Source: an uncultured Candidatus Saccharibacteria bacterium
GTDB lineage: Bacteria; Patescibacteriota; Saccharimonadia; Saccharimonadales; Saccharimonadaceae
Direction of reading: 5' to 3'
Assembly (NCBI GenBank): GCA_946638615.1
Contig: CAMPBO010000001.1
Span: 1-64,000 of the forward strand
DNA: 64,000 nucleotides
In this document: positions 1-30,420 of the stretch, piece after piece
Layout: the number at the start of each line of letters is the position of its first letter
Numbering within the stretch: position 1 is the first letter of the stretch
Notes under the pieces: generated by a model
Told to the model about the DNA's origin: nothing
The model's database searches: none
The model's input: only the letters and a program-made list of their open reading frames with translations
Made by a program: the position numbers and the translations under genes

Positions 1-615
1 AGAACTGGTACTACAACTGACCAATATCCTACGGCAAGAATCACCACCTTCACCACCGCCAATAACTACTCTATCCCAAATATGATTAGTAGTGGCACCT
101 GTTATAATACTTCCTGTGCTAATGACCCCACTACTGGTAACTGGACCAAAGACAGTGTAGTAGGAGCTATAGCAAACAGCAAAGGCTACAACAAAATAGG
201 TATCTATTATAACTACTGTGCTGCTAGCGCTGGTACTTACTGCTGGGGGAATGGTACAAGTTATACTGGTAGTCCAACTACTGATCCTTATACCAACGAA
301 CTTATGGACGTATCTGAAGATATCTGCCCACTGGGTTGGAGAATGCCCACCAGCAATAATGGTGGTGAATACCGAGCTCTTTACTTAGCCTATTCTAGTA
401 ATTACACTGACTTCCGCAGAGCCTTATCTACCCCTCTCTCAGGAAGCTACTACAGTGGTTCGGCTCACTATCAGAGTGGAAGCGGCTACTTTTGGTCCTC
501 TACTTGGATCAGTACCTACGACATGAGGCACCTCAGCATGAATACTAGTAATATCTACCCTAGCAGCACCGACCGCCGGTACTACGGATTTAGTGTACGT
601 TGTATGGTTAAGTAG
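1..615 (+). CDS. C-terminal part of a surface protein with a FISUMP-like (Fib_succ_major) domain; 5' partial
   Basis: The frame of ORF 82..615 is open back to base 1. Motifs CPLGWRMPT, GYFWSST and the terminal YGFSVRCMVK resemble FISUMP domains. Confidence 0.7.
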   Translation, partial: RTGTTTDQYPTARITTFTTANNYSIPNMISSGTCYNTSCANDPTTGNWTKDSVVGAIANSKGYNKIGIYYNYCAASAGTYCWGNGTSYTGSPTTDPYTNELMDVSEDICPLGWRMPTSNNGGEYRALYLAYSSNYTDFRRALSTPLSGSYYSGSAHYQSGSGYFWSSTWISTYDMRHLSMNTSNIYPSSTDRRYYGFSVRCMVK

Positions 616-2666: not shown

Positions 2667-3365
2667 TTAATCGTGTGTGATGTTTCTCATGGCGTTTTTT
2701 GCCGCCGCGAGAACTATTGATTGGAGCTCGTAGGTATTATGATGGGAAACATAAAACCTCTGTTCAGCGGGGTCACATTTGCGTCTCGCGCGCAAAAACT
2801 CGTCCAGTGCCGCCTCGTATTTTTTGTAGGCAATATCGAGTCTCTTCCTTAAGAGACGAAAATCCTTCGGACACCGACGCATGAGCTCGCGCTCTTTCGC
2901 CTCAGCGTCTCTTTTGGCGTTTTTGATAGAGCGAATGAGAGTACTACATTTTTTATCGAGATTATCTCTCAATTCTTTATGCTTTTCATATCGCTTTGTT
3001 AGGGCGGTAACATAGTTCGTGCCGCCATCGCAACATTTTAGACTTATTTTCGCCTGGAGATCGTCCAAAATCAAATTTTCCGTAAGAATTTTGGGCCGAA
3101 GCGCCGCTAGGACTTTTGTTGCTTTGGCCTTAATCCTATCATAACGCTTCCAGATCTTTCTGATCGCGAGACCAGCATCCACGGTCTTGCCTACCACATA
3201 TTTTCTCATCTTTTGTTCGATCTCTTGGCAATCGCTTGCAGCATCGCAAATCGCCTTTAATGCGTCATCAACAGGTTGTCTAAAGGCGGTATACTCTTCC
3301 CAGCAGCGTATCTCTTCCTCAATTCGTTTTTGAAATGTTCTAGATAAATCATTAAATGGGTACAT
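2667..3365 (-). CDS. Hypothetical coiled-coil, charged protein
   Basis: 232-aa ORF, heptad-like charged sequence, terminator downstream. Confidence 0.6.
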   Translation of the reverse strand: MYPFNDLSRTFQKRIEEEIRCWEEYTAFRQPVDDALKAICDAASDCQEIEQKMRKYVVGKTVDAGLAIRKIWKRYDRIKAKATKVLAALRPKILTENLILDDLQAKISLKCCDGGTNYVTALTKRYEKHKELRDNLDKKCSTLIRSIKNAKRDAEAKERELMRRCPKDFRLLRKRLDIAYKKYEAALDEFLRARRKCDPAEQRFYVSHHNTYELQSIVLAAAKNAMRNITHD

Positions 3366-7038: not shown

Positions 7039-7679
7039 ATTTACCTCAACTTATTTTCCTCATTATATCATAAGTTTTAAGCGAAGCTGAATTTTATCTA
7101 AAATTCAGGCATGAAAAATCGCCGACAGACGACGAATTACCTTCTAATTATATCACAACAATAATAAAAAGTCAAGCAAACAGGGAAAACCCAAAACCAA
7201 AACAGGGAATGTTCGGTTATTACATCACAAAAACAGTAAAAATACAATCGAGTTTGTTCGGTAAAATAACAGGGGAGTTTTCCACAATGGTGCAAAACAC
7301 GGTCAAAAAACGTTTTAAAAAAGTCCAAAAAAGCTCTTGCTTTTTGTTTCAAAATATACTAAACTGAAATCAGCGAACAATAAACAAAAACGCTAAACAA
7401 AATTGCACATTAAAAATGTTTGAGATCGACCATCTAGGAGCTTCGCACGCATTAAATTTAGCGAGATGCGAAAAAACAATCGTGCGCTCTTTCCTTAAAA
7501 CACACCTCCCAATTAAAACTCTAATGGTTAACACAATAAGTCTCTCAACGGCTGCGATATATGATTAGCTTCGCGCTGGTAAATCGTGGTGGATTATATT
7601 GTGAGCAAACAAAAATCGAACAAAAACAAAACTGACGAAGTTTCTAGTTGAACGGTCTCAAACGATGTATAATATAGAT

Positions 7680-8552
7680 ATGGAGAAACTGCATACCCCA
7701 GTATTATTATCGGAAGTGCTAGCCAGTCTAAAACCGCATCCCGGAGAGAAATATTTAGATTTAACTGCCGGCTACGGAGGCCATGCTAGAAAAATTTTGG
7801 ATGTAACACGACAATATAAAGGTTCAGTTTTAGTTGATCGTGACGAATTCGCCATTAATTACTTAAAAAACGAATTCCCCTCAACTGTCGAACTAAAACA
7901 TACAGACTTTTATAATGCGGTGCTACAGTTAACCGAGTGTGGAAAGACTTTCGATTTAATACTCGCGGATTTTGGAGTTTCTTCTCCGCAACTAGATATG
8001 GAAGAGCGTGGGTTTTCATTTAAACACGATGCCCCACTTGATATGCGGATGGATAGACGGCAAACCTTAACCGCGAAAGATGTTATCAATAAACACAACG
8101 AAAGGGAGCTAGCAGAGATTTTTGTAAAATATGGCGAAGAAAAGCCAGGACGCGCTAAATTGCTAGCAAGAGAAATTGTACATCATCGCCCAGTCCAAAC
8201 AACTAAAGAATTGGCCGAGATTATCGCGAGCAAATCACGATATTCTAAAACCCACCCCGCTACCAAAGTTTTCCAGGCAGTTAGAATTGTAGTAAACAGC
8301 GAGCTTGAGCAAATCGAAAAAACACTCCCGCTGCTACCTAAATTACTTAATAAAAATGGCCGCCTTGGAATTATCACTTTCCATAGTTTAGAAGACCGAT
8401 TAGTTAAAGATTTTTTCAAAGAGGCAGAAAGCCACGGCGAAGAATCTGAATTGACCGTTATCACTAGAAAGCCAATTGTTGCGGAAAAAGTGGAGTTAGT
8501 TATCAACCCGCGAGCCAGAAGCGCCAAACTGCGAGTGGCAACGCGGAATTGA
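7680..8552 (+). CDS. rsmH: 16S rRNA (cytosine1402-N4)-methyltransferase RsmH/MraW
   Basis: HTPVLLSEVLASL, LDLTAGYGGHA, DFGVSSPQLD, RGFSF..PLDMRMD, ITFHSLEDR. ATG at 7680 preferred over 7665. Confidence 0.95.
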   Translation: MEKLHTPVLLSEVLASLKPHPGEKYLDLTAGYGGHARKILDVTRQYKGSVLVDRDEFAINYLKNEFPSTVELKHTDFYNAVLQLTECGKTFDLILADFGVSSPQLDMEERGFSFKHDAPLDMRMDRRQTLTAKDVINKHNERELAEIFVKYGEEKPGRAKLLAREIVHHRPVQTTKELAEIIASKSRYSKTHPATKVFQAVRIVVNSELEQIEKTLPLLPKLLNKNGRLGIITFHSLEDRLVKDFFKEAESHGEESELTVITRKPIVAEKVELVINPRARSAKLRVATRN

Positions 8553-8585
8553 TAAAACAAAAACAATAAACAAAAAGGAGGCAAT

Positions 8586-8651
8586 ATGCCAAAACAAATA
8601 TTAGTTGCGAACAAATCTCGCAAGCAAACCGTCAAGGTTAATTTTCGCTAA
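8586..8651 (+). CDS. Candidate 21-aa leader peptide MPKQILVANKSRKQTVKVNFR
   Basis: Strong Shine-Dalgarno AAAAAGGAGGCAAT-ATG; in-frame TAA directly before a structured RNA segment. Confidence 0.5.
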   Translation: MPKQILVANKSRKQTVKVNFR

Positions 8652-8653
8652 AA

Positions 8654-8794
8654 CCGGGCGGCTCTGCCGCCTGACATGGACCAGAGTGTGGTCCGCCAAA
8701 AACCAAAAGAGTTCACACGGAGAGTGTGAAAATGTATGACCTACCGGGAGAGCCTCTTTAGCTTACTTATAGCTCTGGCTAAAGAGGTCCCCGG
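8654..8794 (+). ncRNA. Candidate structured RNA element between rsmH and ftsL-like gene
   Basis: Perfect hairpins GGCGGC-TCT-GCCGCC (8657-8671), GGACCA/TGGTCC (8678-8694), TTCACAC/GTGTGAA (8712-8730), CCTCTTTAGC/GCTAAAGAGG (8753-8787) enclosed by CCGGG/CCCGG (8744-8794). Confidence 0.65.
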
Positions 8795-8836
8795 ACTAAG
8801 AAAAACAAAAACAAATAAGTATCAAGCGAGGAAAAA

Positions 8837-9190
8837 ATGATCAATCAAACTACCTACGTCACGAGACGAGAAGCATTCGGAGGAAATAGTTTTGCTCGTA
8901 ATCGTAACACTGTCCGTCACACTAAGAAGAGTCTTGGCTCAATTTCTCAAATCGTTATTGTAAGTATGCTTACTTTAGTTTTTGGTTTAATTTATGTTGC
9001 TGAGGGGACCAAAGCTACTGGTTTTGATTATGAATTATCAAGTGTCGAATCTGAAATTTCAGAAATGAGTGCCAAAAAAGATGACCTTGCTGTCGAGAAA
9101 GCTCGTCTCACCTCTGTTGCTGCTGCCAAGAATAGTACGGTTGCCGCTGTCATGGAAGACGCTACGGTTACTGGCTATGTTGCAGAATAA
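8837..9190 (+). CDS. FtsL-like cell division protein (single TM plus coiled coil)
   Basis: Position between rsmH and ftsI; one TM segment followed by a short coiled coil. Confidence 0.6.
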   Translation: MINQTTYVTRREAFGGNSFARNRNTVRHTKKSLGSISQIVIVSMLTLVFGLIYVAEGTKATGFDYELSSVESEISEMSAKKDDLAVEKARLTSVAAAKNSTVAAVMEDATVTGYVAE

Positions 9191-25893: not shown

Positions 25894-27276
25894 CTAATCG
25901 TTTTTGAAAGAAAATTTAATTGGAGTCCCAATGAAGGGATATTTTTCGCGAATTTTACGCTCCAAGAACCTCTTCCACGACCAATGTAGAAGTTCAAGGT
26001 CATGCCCGTGCACGACGAACCAAGGTGGGCAGGTATCTGTTTGAACGATATATTTCGGTTTTGGGCGAGTGTTTTTAAGCCCGGCTGGCGCATGTTCAAC
26101 GATTGCTGTCGCAAGAATCTTATTGAGCTCTGAAGTCTTAATTTCGGTATGCCTTGCCGCATCAATCTCGAGCGTGAGCTCAAAAATCCGGGTGGCATTC
26201 TGCCCAGTCTCCGAGCTAGTGAGAACTACTGGCGCATATGGCAAGAAATTGTAATCTTTTTCCAGTGCATCTAATAAAAAGTCCGCCGCGGTGCGATTTT
26301 TGATGTTTTCTTCACCGTAAAAATTCGTCGGTTCGGCGTTTTCGAGTAAATCGGATTTTGTTACCACCATAATAATTCCCTTGCCAGCCTCGACGATTTG
26401 CCCCGCAAGTGACTGATCTAGTTTGGAATGCGGCTCGGTAGAATCAACGAGGAGACAGCAAATATCCGCCTCTTCGATCGCGGCGAGTGTACGAATGGCT
26501 GAAAATTTTTCAATCCCCACCTCGCGTTTTCCAGGCTTGCGTAAACCTGCGGTATCCAAAATCTCAATCTCGCGCCCCTTGTATTTAATCTGAACACGAT
26601 TCACATCGCGCGTCGTCCCCTGGCGGCTCGAAACCACCGCCTGCTGCTTCTTGCCGAGCGTGTTAAAAAGACTAGATTTTCCCACGTTCGGCCGCCCAAT
26701 AAGTGCAACTTTAAGGGCGGGGGTGGCCGAAACCTGTTTTTGCGGGACCATAAGCTCGGCCGAACGGCCTTGAGTGTGTCCCGCAAAAATAGGTTCGGCC
26801 AGGACTCCCTCTTTCAACTTTGCAATTCCCTGGCCAGTCGTAGCGGAAACATAAAATGTATTTTCTGGTGCAACGCCAAGCGCCCGGAACTCAGTCAAAG
26901 GCAAAGATTCGCCGAGGTCGCACTTATTCAAGACTAGATACACTGGCTTTTTCGAACGGAGGGCATCTTTAGCGATTTTTGCATCACGATGGTCAAAATA
27001 CTTGCTCGAGTCGAGCGTCACCAAAATCACATCTGCTGCCTCGATCGCATCTTGAATTTGATCCTGAATCGAAGCCTCAAAATCATCGGTTGGATCTTTC
27101 AGGCCGGCCGTATCAATTAAAATAAAAGAATTATCAATCGTGGTCATCACATTGTCGCGCGTCGTGCCCTCTTCGCGGGCTACGATCGCGATATTTTTTC
27201 GCGCCATGCGATTCAAAATAGACGACTTCCCCGCGTTCGTCTGACCAATCAAAGCTACAATCGGCAGTTTACTCAT
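25894..27276 (-). CDS. der: Ribosome biogenesis GTPase Der (EngA)
   Basis: Two G domains (GQTNAGKSS.., GRPNVGKSS..) plus KH-like C-terminus. ATG at 27276 preferred over 27294. Confidence 0.93.
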   Translation of the reverse strand: MSKLPIVALIGQTNAGKSSILNRMARKNIAIVAREEGTTRDNVMTTIDNSFILIDTAGLKDPTDDFEASIQDQIQDAIEAADVILVTLDSSKYFDHRDAKIAKDALRSKKPVYLVLNKCDLGESLPLTEFRALGVAPENTFYVSATTGQGIAKLKEGVLAEPIFAGHTQGRSAELMVPQKQVSATPALKVALIGRPNVGKSSLFNTLGKKQQAVVSSRQGTTRDVNRVQIKYKGREIEILDTAGLRKPGKREVGIEKFSAIRTLAAIEEADICCLLVDSTEPHSKLDQSLAGQIVEAGKGIIMVVTKSDLLENAEPTNFYGEENIKNRTAADFLLDALEKDYNFLPYAPVVLTSSETGQNATRIFELTLEIDAARHTEIKTSELNKILATAIVEHAPAGLKNTRPKPKYIVQTDTCPPWFVVHGHDLELLHWSWKRFLERKIREKYPFIGTPIKFSFKND

Positions 27277-27357
27277 ATCTTTATTATAACACAAAAAACA
27301 CCCTCCGAAAAGGGCTTATACTATAATTATAGCACACTTTAGCTAAAAAGTCAAGAT

Positions 27358-27378
27358 ATGGTGACCTCGGCGGGAGTT
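27358..27378 (-). repeat. att-like direct repeat copy 1 (displaced tRNA-Glu 3' end)
   Basis: ATGGTGACCTCGGCGGGAGTT identical to 29105-29125. Confidence 0.85.
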
Positions 27379-27565
27379 TGTTTTTGCGTAAAACGCAAAA
27401 AAGCTCCTATGGAGCCTACAATAATAATGGTATAAAAGCCTACAGTGCACACCTTATAATCTAATACTATCATTTACAATATATAAATAAAATGTTATAA
27501 TGTAAAAAGGTATTCAGTTGTAAAACTTATCGTACTTTACTATTTTTGAAAGGTTGGTGGTATGA

Positions 27566-28705
27566 ATGTCAAGAAACTACGAATTGGATTTATTAAAATC
27601 CAGAGAACAAGACGCATTTCAGCGTAAGCAAGCAGCATTCCAGCGCTACAAGGAAGCGAGAGATCGTACCAGTGACATCCATGACGAAATGGAATCTGCA
27701 TGGCAAGAACGTTCTTCCGCTAGAGAAGAAATGAATCGCGAATACGAAGAGATGCGAAGGAACAGTGAGCACTATCGTGAAGTTTGGGACGAATATGGTC
27801 GCATCCGCGACGATAACAATTCTCGCATCGAATCCTTAAAATTGGAAGCCGATCGCGAACACCAGGAAATGATCAGCTGTTTTGACCAGGCTAGCTCCGA
27901 GTATGAATACGGAGACAAGTCAATGGCTCCAGTTTATTCTCAGGAAGGACACGAGCATAAAGAACGCAGAGACGAGCTTAACGCAGAAATCAGCGAACTT
28001 GCTCGAGAAGTCAAAGAAGCTAGACAGAATGCTGAGCGGCGCGCACCGAAAACCGATTCATCCGCATTCCACAGAGCAAAAGAAGCTTTTGAACGAGCAA
28101 AATCTCGCCATGAATCCATTCAAGCAGAGTTTAAACGCGCAAAAGCTGAACGCGATCGTCTTAAGGCTGAATTTGATTCTCTTCACGAGGAACATCTTCG
28201 CTTGAAGGAAGAATTCCAGAGAAAACTCGAAGAAATTAAATCAGCCAGTAAACGCGAACGCGACAGAACCCTCGATAGGGCTAATATTGGTTGGAGTGAA
28301 CGTTCTACGGCAAAAATCGTAAAAAAGGCTGATGGAACTGTACAGATTTATCATGGTGGCATTGGTGGCGGAGATGGTTATGGTCATGGTCATACCGTGC
28401 TCGATCAGTTTGGCAACAAAACCTATGATAGGGATGCATTTGGGGCTCACGGATCTCAAAATTATGCAGATTCCTCGCTTCGCAACGGAACCTATCGTGG
28501 CACCTTCGATGGTCGTCCAGCCGTAATCAAGGTTAGCGATTCTGGAAATTCTGACCAGATTCAGATTTTCTACGGAGGAAAAGGTTCTCCGGATGGCCCT
28601 GGGCATAACCATGTCAATTACGTAAATGGTAAACTCCAGTTTTGGCGCGAGCATGGCGAAACTCTTTATCAGGATGATAAGAAAAACCAGATAAACAACC
28701 TCTAA
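27566..28705 (+). CDS. Orphan protein: long coiled coil plus two C-terminal YxGGxGxxDGxGHxH-type repeats
   Basis: Coiled coil over roughly the first 235 aa; repeats VQIYHGGIGGGDGYGHGH and IQIFYGGKGSPDGPGHNH. Confidence 0.75.
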   Translation: MSRNYELDLLKSREQDAFQRKQAAFQRYKEARDRTSDIHDEMESAWQERSSAREEMNREYEEMRRNSEHYREVWDEYGRIRDDNNSRIESLKLEADREHQEMISCFDQASSEYEYGDKSMAPVYSQEGHEHKERRDELNAEISELAREVKEARQNAERRAPKTDSSAFHRAKEAFERAKSRHESIQAEFKRAKAERDRLKAEFDSLHEEHLRLKEEFQRKLEEIKSASKRERDRTLDRANIGWSERSTAKIVKKADGTVQIYHGGIGGGDGYGHGHTVLDQFGNKTYDRDAFGAHGSQNYADSSLRNGTYRGTFDGRPAVIKVSDSGNSDQIQIFYGGKGSPDGPGHNHVNYVNGKLQFWREHGETLYQDDKKNQINNL

Positions 28706-28710
28706 TTCGA

Positions 28711-28738
28711 AAGGATAGCGACGAAAGTTGCTATCCTT
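28711..28738 (+). terminator. Putative terminator hairpin of the coiled-coil gene
   Basis: AAGGATAGC-gacgaaagtt-GCTATCCTT followed by an AT-rich stretch. Confidence 0.55.
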
Positions 28739-28762
28739 ATTTAATTGTTATATAATATAGAT

Positions 28763-29077
28763 ATGAAAATCCTATCAAAAGAAGAAGTTGAAAAAATCGC
28801 AAGCTCATTTGATTTTGATGGCAAACTAACTTTTACCGATATGATTGACTTTGAACCAGATTGCAAAATTTATAAATTGGACAACGAAACTGAGGATAAT
28901 TTTATTCTCATATGTCGCGACTATCAATTTGATGACACAGATGCCGAGGGGAGAATTCTTAATAATGAACTAGGGATCGCTATTCTTGATAGGCTAAAAT
29001 GTAATAATAGTTATTTCTTAAGAACTAATGAATTTGATAGATTTGAATATGTATTTTCATTGGCTCGAATCGCTTAA
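28763..29077 (+). CDS. Small acidic orphan protein, candidate immunity/partner protein
   Basis: ~104 aa, Asp/Glu-rich; own TATAAT 6 nt before ATG. Confidence 0.65.
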   Translation: MKILSKEEVEKIASSFDFDGKLTFTDMIDFEPDCKIYKLDNETEDNFILICRDYQFDDTDAEGRILNNELGIAILDRLKCNNSYFLRTNEFDRFEYVFSLARIA

Positions 29078-29104
29078 TAAAAAGAATCTCTAAGTCTGAA
29101 AATG

Positions 29105-29125
29105 ATGGTGACCTCGGCGGGAGTT
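29105..29125 (-). repeat. att-like direct repeat copy 2 (3' end of intact tRNA-Glu)
   Basis: Exact match to 27358-27378. Confidence 0.85.
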
Positions 29126-29181
29126 GAACCCGCGATTTTCTGGATGAGAACCAGACGTCCTAACCACTAGACGACGAGGCC
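29106..29181 (-). tRNA. tRNA-Glu(CTC), CCA encoded
   Basis: GGCCTCG TC GTCTAGTGGTTAGGAC G TCTGG TTCTCAT CCAGA AAATC GCGGG TTCAACT CCCGC CGAGGTC A CCA folds as a cloverleaf; anticodon CTC. Confidence 0.93.
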
Positions 29182-29208: not shown

Positions 29209-30420
29209 CTAATATTCAACACCACCATAATTCGGTATAGCCGAAACGAAAGTTTGTCCTGGCGCGAGTTTTATTTCGTTTCCTACGTTGTCAAAAAATT
29301 TGATCTGATCATTTCTAGAAGTTTTATTCCAGGTGCCTTTGACAGCTGCTCCATTCTGAAAAATATAAACATCTCCAGAGCCGACAGCTTGTATATCCTC
29401 ATGATAATTATCAGCAGCTTTCTTTTCTGATACAACCATTGCTATCACAACTTTCGGGTTCATTTGAACTAGCGAGCAAACATCTTCGGGATTACGCTCT
29501 CCTAAATTTTCAGTTGGACAAGCATAAATTTCGTGTGCTTTTCCATTCCCGTAGCTGCGTTTGTAAGAATTTGTCGCAATATCATACATATATCTTACGT
29601 TATAGGCTGGTACATTCCCGAAACGTAAGTTGATTTCTGAAGTTTGAGGGGCTAGCTCGGAAGTGTTTACTTTTGTTGGTACAGTAATTACGAGGCTTTC
29701 TTTAGCTAGTTTATTTATACGATCACGCGAAGCTTCTTCTGGTGTCATTCTAATAAAACCATTTACATTAGAAGTGGCATATCCCCTATCGGCACTAAAT
29801 TGTCGCAGATATGTAGCGGTAGTAAATAAGTTATTCCAAAGTCTTCCAGAATAGGTCCCACGATACATATAAGAATAATTCTCGGTTAAATCTTTATACC
29901 CACCAGTTCGTATAGCTGCCAAGGCATCATCGGCTCCACCCGCATGAACGATTGTACAATCAAAAGGCGTATCCCACTCAAGATAATAAAGTCTAAGCGA
30001 ACGAATAGGCCCAATTACAGCCGATTGAGGATTTTGATAAATCGCCGCAAAGCGTGTAATTCCTGCTTCGGCAATTGCTTCAAATATCACCCCGGCTTCA
30101 TTCAATCCAGCTTGTGGTCTAGCTCCGTCGGTTCCGTTAGGCGTCTGGATGCAATATGTTGGAGCAGTCAATAAATTAGCGTTAGCTAAAGGCTCACCCG
30201 TCAACGCACTATAAGAAGCCTCGGTTTTAATACTCGAAGGGATGTCTGGAAAAACCAATCCAGCCAGCTTTTTTTGAGGCATTAATATTCCGCCCAAAAT
30301 TAAACCAAAACCAATTAATAAACTGGCTGTTCCACAAATTAGACAGATAAGCCATTTTTTGCTGGTTAATGGACGAGTTTTTTCTTCGTCATTTAAATTT
30401 ATTATAATTTTTTCGTCCAT
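29209..30420 (-). CDS. DUF3048 (YerB-like) membrane-anchored protein
   Basis: N-terminal TM; ARPQAGLNEAGVIFEAIAEAGITRFAAIYQ...GPIRSLRLYYLEW; VHAGGADDAL. Confidence 0.8.
   Translation of the reverse strand: MDEKIIINLNDEEKTRPLTSKKWLICLICGTASLLIGFGLILGGILMPQKKLAGLVFPDIPSSIKTEASYSALTGEPLANANLLTAPTYCIQTPNGTDGARPQAGLNEAGVIFEAIAEAGITRFAAIYQNPQSAVIGPIRSLRLYYLEWDTPFDCTIVHAGGADDALAAIRTGGYKDLTENYSYMYRGTYSGRLWNNLFTTATYLRQFSADRGYATSNVNGFIRMTPEEASRDRINKLAKESLVITVPTKVNTSELAPQTSEINLRFGNVPAYNVRYMYDIATNSYKRSYGNGKAHEIYACPTENLGERNPEDVCSLVQMNPKVVIAMVVSEKKAADNYHEDIQAVGSGDVYIFQNGAAVKGTWNKTSRNDQIKFFDNVGNEIKLAPGQTFVSAIPNYGGVEY

Follow-up and report, generated by a model that had tools for sequence, protein, structure and literature searches.

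We identified a small two-gene cassette at the 3' end of the tRNA-Glu(CTC) gene of an uncultured Candidatus Saccharibacteria bacterium, within a contiguous stretch of 64,000 nucleotides that was analysed as a whole (hereafter, the window). The interval is best explained as a cassette inserted at the tRNA 3' end, composed of a polymorphic effector gene and a cognate immunity-type gene, and we assign this reading a probability of about two in three. The cassette is carried by a tiny gut bacterium that probably lives on other bacteria.

Insertion at the 3' end of tRNA-Glu(CTC)

The cassette lies downstream of the tRNA 3' end, between two exact copies of a 21-bp sequence that have the same orientation and are offset by 1,747 bp (Table 1). 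Given the position and strand of the tRNA gene, the proximal copy corresponds to the 3' end of the tRNA, including the CCA, plus one base. The 1,726 bp between the copies contain tandem ORFs of 379 aa (P0001) and 104 aa (P0002). P0001 combines a coiled coil with two modules that carry GHGH/GHNH cores, and P0002 is acidic, with 23 D/E against 13 K/R residues. The island contains these two genes only and has no integrase gene; its base composition gives no foreign signal (GC 0.402, compared to 0.394), and the only matches in the Rfam search were to tRNA. A preliminary description of this DNA had reported a 21-bp duplication at the tRNA-Glu(CTC) 3' end, enclosing a coiled-coil protein with two such repeats and a small acidic protein with its own promoter, with no integrase visible; both copies, their coordinates and orientation, the gene content (with a promoter-like site for the second gene) and the lack of an integrase were all borne out.

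Table 1. Features of the tRNA-Glu(CTC)/der locus, in window coordinates. Promoter-like sites are consensus matches only, of which 10 were found against an average of 5.5 in shuffled sequences.
Feature	Position	Strand	Evidence or remark
der, ribosome biogenesis GTPase, flanking core gene	25894..27276	-	NCBIfam TIGR03594, E 5e-115; conserved tRNA-Glu neighbour in relatives
der promoter region	27277..27357	-	Alignment with L074, L087, L101 and L081; -35/-10 site at 27354-27326
tRNA-Glu 3' end, distal copy (21 bp)	27358..27378	-	Exact match; 18/18 identity, 82 bp away from der
Element end not included in the conserved body; inverted repeat TTTTTGCGTTTTACGCAAAAA	27379..27411	.	Identity to G259 starts at 27412
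Mobile cassette body	27412..29086	+	blastn against L033 (G259), 95.5% nucleotide identity
Promoter-like site, effector gene	27473..27501	+	TTTACA-17-TATAAT, 11/12 consensus
Effector-type gene P0001, 379 aa: coiled-coil N-domain, GHGH modules 1 and 2	27566..28705	+	ORF
DUF1771 match in the N-domain, aa 91-141	27836..27988	+	Pfam, E 3e-9
GHGH module 1, about aa 249-297	28310..28456	+	Alignment; present in every long member, across tail classes
GHGH module 2, about aa 308-379; class A variable tail, putative toxin	28487..28702	+	Alignments
Terminator-like hairpin in the effector/partner gap	28711..28738	+	12 pairs
Promoter-like site, partner gene; overlaps the hairpin	28728..28756	+	TTGCTA-17-TATAAT, 10/12 consensus
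Partner/immunity-type gene P0002, 104 aa, ATG at 28763	28763..29077	+	ORF
Proximal 21-mer, 3' end of the tRNA gene	29105..29125	-	Sequence match
Intact tRNA-Glu(CTC), docking site	29106..29181	-	ARAGORN; Rfam RF00005, 65.3 bits
DUF3048 (YerB-like) flanking core gene	29209..30420	-	PF11258 and PF17479; synteny in relatives

We compared this locus with the corresponding region in relatives. The gene order DUF3048 gene, tRNA-Glu(CTC), der is kept within the genus, and in eight relatives with an empty site (L074, L081, L087, L092, L093, L097, L099 and L101) der is found 38-81 bp behind the tRNA. In two of these, L074 and L087, the CCA is followed immediately by the der promoter (TTGACTTTTT..TATAAT), and in the window the alignable der promoter abuts the distal 21-mer, not the tRNA. 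The distal copy lies 82 bp from der, compared to 81 bp (L074) and 80 bp (L087) for the tRNA ends, indicating that it occupies the position of the tRNA end in the empty relatives; at this distance from the der start it scores 18/18, against a maximum of 12 for shuffled sequences. The locus thus has the anatomy of a tRNA island, with a displaced 3' tRNA fragment in the correct orientation at the far end, and an empty site in relatives.

The two cassette genes were absent from this site in the loci of 29 relatives (a few of them cut by contig ends), and no relative examined carries both genes here. The 21-mer occurs twice in the window, even with up to three mismatches allowed (0.00 copies expected from shuffles), and the same two copies are the only ones in the entire 541,377-bp assembly at this tolerance. 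A coincidental second copy, or a dispersed repeat with no insertion at all, would have to produce this pair in 541 kb against 0.00 expected, and to place one member exactly where the empty relatives have their tRNA end; the empty-site comparison refutes this explanation, and its probability is negligible. We are therefore highly confident that the cassette was inserted at the tRNA-Glu(CTC) 3' end, in a clean and probably recent event. The distal 21-mer is either the end of the original tRNA gene, now displaced, or what remains of an att site.

The tRNA-Glu/der site is a variable locus. Relatives have unrelated inserts in this interval, mostly without a distal copy. At loci L169-L180 the interval between tRNA-Glu(CTC) and der contains large surface-type proteins, a cation-efflux-like protein and small coiled-coil proteins, with no integrase seen among these inserts.

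Tails and partners of the effector family

The long protein had been called an orphan, which can no longer be upheld: we identified relatives of P0001 in 99 of the 394 genomes of the bacterial family, distributed over 18 of 61 genera. Their first 230-300 residues are common to all and include DUF1771, which scores 37.5 bits in P0001 (Pfam cut-off 28.7), 41.8-45.8 bits in four relatives of the same genus, and below the cut-off in four more distant relatives. The tails resolve into class A, the GHGH module as found in the window; class B, with the pattern HNHYGP..YTGPG; class C, with HWT..GHPDxHxxPxD; and further, rarer classes. Proteins with different tails can have closely similar N-termini: N-terminal identity is 84% between L047 (class A) and L046 (class C), against 25% for their tails, and the corresponding values for L051 (class B) and L054 (class A) are 84% and 23%. 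Tails have thus been exchanged among N-termini, and the family shows the conserved N-terminus with diverse, exchangeable C-terminal domains that is characteristic of polymorphic toxins. GHGH module 1 is constant in class B and C proteins too, so that a GHGH module need not be toxic.

We additionally identified stand-alone GHGH tails, as ORFs of 79-86 aa beside P0002-type partners (L116, L119, L120, L123 and L125), and, in the closest relative (G259), a second and different immunity-type gene behind the first; stand-alone tips and extra immunity genes are thus both present in the family. Tail-less coiled-coil proteins with weak similarity to the N-domain were found at 2667-3365 (-) of the window (232 aa; E 3e-5) and at L148 (3565-4146, +; 193 aa; E 1e-7), and similar N-domain-only proteins occur in several relatives. 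An incomplete-looking ORF at the start of the window (82-615) is like paralogous surface-domain proteins that recur in the genus.

Tails and neighbouring small proteins were clustered independently, yielding 4 tail clusters and 10 partner clusters. The partner cluster predicts the tail class in 51/51 loci, a count that includes related genomes, and none of 20,000 shuffles gave an association as strong; the match holds in 36/36 loci after dropping partners that were more than 60% identical. The association used 62-aa tails, since tails of 100 aa still included part of the shared module and formed a single cluster, and in three class B loci, where the partner is convergent and not co-directional, it was assigned by proximity. 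The cluster of P0002 (cluster 0) pairs with class A tails only. The adjacent partner is thus, by sequence association, specific to the C-terminal domain, and it is very likely that P0001 and P0002 form a matched pair of a polymorphic effector and its partner. The earlier suggestion of an effector/immunity-type pair gains support from this family-wide matching and from the tail swapping.

Putative roles of the pair and relation to known toxins

Searches of P0001 and P0002 against Pfam, PHROGs, NCBIfam and PADLOC identified DUF1771 and generic coiled-coil matches only, those in PADLOC being weak and SMC-like. No tail matched a known toxin domain in the libraries searched, a GHGH profile had no match in the PDB or Pfam, and P0002 found nothing specific among PDB sequences. 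The model of the GHGH module is all-beta and of low confidence (pLDDT 66.9), with no recognised active site, and the GHGH/C-terminal model had no PDB relative in the fold search. P0002 was modelled well, as a small alpha/beta protein (pLDDT 89.6); its best match in the fold search, to kinase-like proteins (E 0.019), was not significant. In the putative trafficking part of P0001 only DUF1771 and the coiled coil were recognised, no export signal was identified in the effector family, and no secretion system was linked to it.

The anatomy of the pair makes toxin and immunity roles reasonably likely. GHGH module 2 would be the toxin, probably acting against competitors or against the bacterial host of the epibiont; the coiled-coil/DUF1771 N-terminus would serve as the trafficking part; and P0002, expressed from its own promoter, would protect the producer and its sister cells. 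For export, the conserved type IV secretion system (T4SS) of Patescibacteria is homologous to the monoderm conjugation machinery (PMC12102498) and thus is a natural candidate, although its use here is a guess to which we give less than an even chance.

Two other accounts of the pair were weighed. The family might consist of coiled-coil proteins that have structural or surface-related functions and rapidly evolving tails, with the partner serving each tail as a chaperone or binding protein and not as an immunity protein. Such non-toxic roles would agree with the tail-less relatives (window 2667-3365 and L148), with the want of a recognised toxin domain, and with an all-beta GHGH model that has no recognised active site. 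A chaperone is hard to reconcile, however, with one-to-one matching of tails and partners, with stand-alone tails, and with an extra immunity-type gene, and we consider this account quite unlikely. It is improbable, too, that the cassette encodes a toxin-antitoxin or anti-phage module of the ordinary two-gene kind, working within the producing cell and with the coiled coil as a sensor or scaffold: trafficking toxins, and not the usual toxin-antitoxin systems, combine a long conserved N-domain with C-terminal tips that are swapped, and the PADLOC matches were only those to SMC-like coiled coils, even if two genes with separate promoter-like sites in a hot spot of mobile DNA, and with no secretion signal seen, are what such a module would present.

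The preferred reading, of an effector with its immunity protein, places the pair close to polymorphic toxin systems. As laid out in the portion of Zhang et al. (2012; PMC3482391) considered here, polymorphic toxin loci have a constant N-terminus, an exchangeable tip, a tip-specific neighbour, stand-alone tips and extra immunity genes, and all these features of layout also occur in the window family. The family differs in its components, as the DUF1771 coiled-coil N-domain, the GHGH, B and C tips, and the partners match no described family in the libraries searched; neither TM7 nor DUF1771 occurs in that portion of the paper. Within the Saccharibacteria, a possible Rhs-type polymorphic toxin with a neighbouring immunity gene is known from Candidatus T. 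rhizospherense (PMC6031116), and resembles the window pair in having an immunity gene next to a possible toxin gene. That toxin is a 2,487-aa Rhs/YD-repeat protein, for which no relation to the coiled-coil family is stated. A cluster of putative T4SS effectors in TM7x comprises proposed Saccharibacteria effectors with a diverse repertoire (PMC10768705, PMC12592800); the likeness to the window family lies in this diversity, and, unlike the window family, the TM7x effectors are encoded beside the T4SS. Neither the effector family nor the tRNA-end repeats described below appeared in the papers searched, few of which were subscription papers.

The family with swappable tips bears on competition among Saccharibacteria and on the manipulation of their bacterial hosts, and provides about 50 candidate effector-immunity pairs for tests of toxicity and rescue and of T4SS export. 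That the cassettes sit at tRNA ends points to a way for genomes of well under or near one megabase to exchange such genes with no integrase in each cassette.

Other tRNA genes and a putative recombinase

The same cassette was found at a different tRNA gene in another species, further supporting insertion at a tRNA 3' end. In the closest relative (G259; locus L033), the cassette body is downstream of tRNA-Arg(CCT), between perfect 52-bp direct repeats that are 2,814 bp apart, and the tRNA-Glu/der interval of this genome, of about 2.9 kb, contains neither cassette gene. In G220, a related gene pair is bracketed by two 18-bp copies of the tRNA-Gln(TTG) 3' end. Comparison of these loci indicates that the cassette moves between tRNA genes. 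Across 51 effector cassettes, the tRNA genes within 300 bp face the cassette by the 3' end in 12 cases and by the 5' end in none, compared to an expectation of 0.9 facing by the 3' end (at 45 tRNA genes per 750 kb); some of the 12 loci are related, and six independent cases would still give P of about 0.0004. Within 1.5 kb, cassettes are no closer to tRNA genes than tRNA density predicts, indicating that only the tight, 3'-facing proximity is in excess.

We identified copies of tRNA 3' ends well beyond the effector cassettes. In this assembly 7 of 34 tRNA genes, and in G163 13 of 41, are followed downstream by a copy of their own 3' end (at least 13 nt, CCA included); none was found upstream or on the opposite strand in either. 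Under a stricter 14-nt search of all loci, 43/140 tRNA genes had such a copy, although this 30% is not an unbiased rate, because the loci were partly chosen for tRNA-linked inserts. The copies lie mostly 58-87 and 119-188 bp away, and occur in tandem at four loci (L150, L156, L166 and L057). Copies of this kind were seen behind tRNA genes of G000 (L135-L147), of G163 (L149-L168) and of other relatives. At 13 of 41 copies there is a dyad with a perfect stem of at least 6, the right arm of which extends over the first part of the copy, the T-arm strand of the tRNA concerned; by analogy, this arrangement resembles a tyrosine-recombinase core. No such left dyad arm was seen at the distal copy in the window. 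Behind tRNA-Gln(CTG) at L144 (G000:C15) there is a perfect inverted repeat (15-bp arms, 4-nt loop), the right arm of which extends into the copy of the tRNA-Gln 3' end.

The assembly, which is 71% complete, has a single PF00589 gene (C3:45163). No integrase using the tRNA-Glu(CTC) end was found among the integrase-bearing loci inspected in relatives, where accessory integrases were located in prophage-like or other regions, and no helper or excised form of the cassette was found. Most likely, the cassette was inserted by a recombinase that acted in trans and site-specifically on the T-arm/acceptor end of tRNA genes; recombination between tRNA ends without a dedicated integrase is possible. The element may, as the preliminary description proposed, be satellite-like or degraded and be mobilised in trans.

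Alternatively, tRNA 3' ends could be permissive hot spots, at which accessory genes of any kind land once DNA has been taken up and one repeated tRNA end recombines homologously with another; the cassette itself would then not be a mobile element, and the pair would still be a polymorphic effector with its immunity gene. The unrelated inserts at tRNA-Glu/der, mostly lacking a distal copy, the many tRNA genes with 3'-end copies and no cargo, and the one PF00589 gene in the assembly are all compatible with such a hot spot. We hold it to be somewhat unlikely in view of the defined element ends implied by exact bracketing, over 18-21 bp in the window and G220 and over 52 bp in G259, and of the enrichment of the effector family at 3'-facing tRNA genes.

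A broader and speculative view can also be taken, which we think unlikely as a whole: many tRNA 3' ends of Saccharibacteria could constitute a genome-wide docking system, integron-like but without a platform. A shared recombinase, acting in trans, would insert, stack and exchange short units and gene cassettes there, and the new coiled-coil polymorphic effector-immunity family would be among the main cargo in these ultrasmall epibionts. Each unit or cassette would repeat the 3' end of the local tRNA at its terminus, often together with a hairpin.

Partly similar arrangements are known elsewhere. In Escherichia coli, the 178-bp repeats of tyrT, with the rtT RNA, are tandem units behind a tRNA gene, each with a copy of its 3' end; this is one locus, whereas in Saccharibacteria many tRNA genes per genome are involved, with units of 58-188 bp and sometimes gene cassettes. 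Tycheposons of Prochlorococcus, a bacterium with a streamlined genome, likewise bring small cargo to several of its tRNA genes, and usually encode a tyrosine recombinase. The window cassette is like them in being small cargo at tRNA genes, and unlike them in its smaller size and in having no tyrosine recombinase. The term tycheposon occurs in PMC10872708. The tRNA islands catalogued by Islander (PMC4383910) are inserted at tRNA 3' ends, with a regenerated tRNA and a displaced 3' fragment at their ends, as here; Islander requires an integrase gene, and the window cassette, of 1.7 kb and two genes, has none. As it has no known trafficking domain and no integrase, and as we infer its toxicity only, we do not class the cassette as a full polymorphic toxin system or as a full tRNA island, although it works like both; among polymorphic effector/immunity cassettes, we regard it as a new variant, as yet without a name, that is docked at tRNA ends and has a putative toxin as its effector.

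Searches of plasmid and phage collections by tblastn, and of viral contigs with a degenerate DNA pattern, gave no matches. In two IMG/VR contigs (L189 and L190), a class A effector and its partner have two large serine recombinases and a DUF4314 gene as neighbours, and in L190 the pair is located just behind two tRNA-Glu genes. This element looks like an integrative element of Firmicutes type, and given this context the effector family may travel between phyla. A contig of G384 (L052, G384:C6) is near-identical to the L189/L190 type; this genome has 7% contamination, and the contig may be foreign to it. At a further locus, L184 (G355:C19), an integrase gene and a large serine recombinase (7577-9055) adjoin tRNA-Lys(CTT), with a copy of the tRNA 3' end 184 bp downstream.
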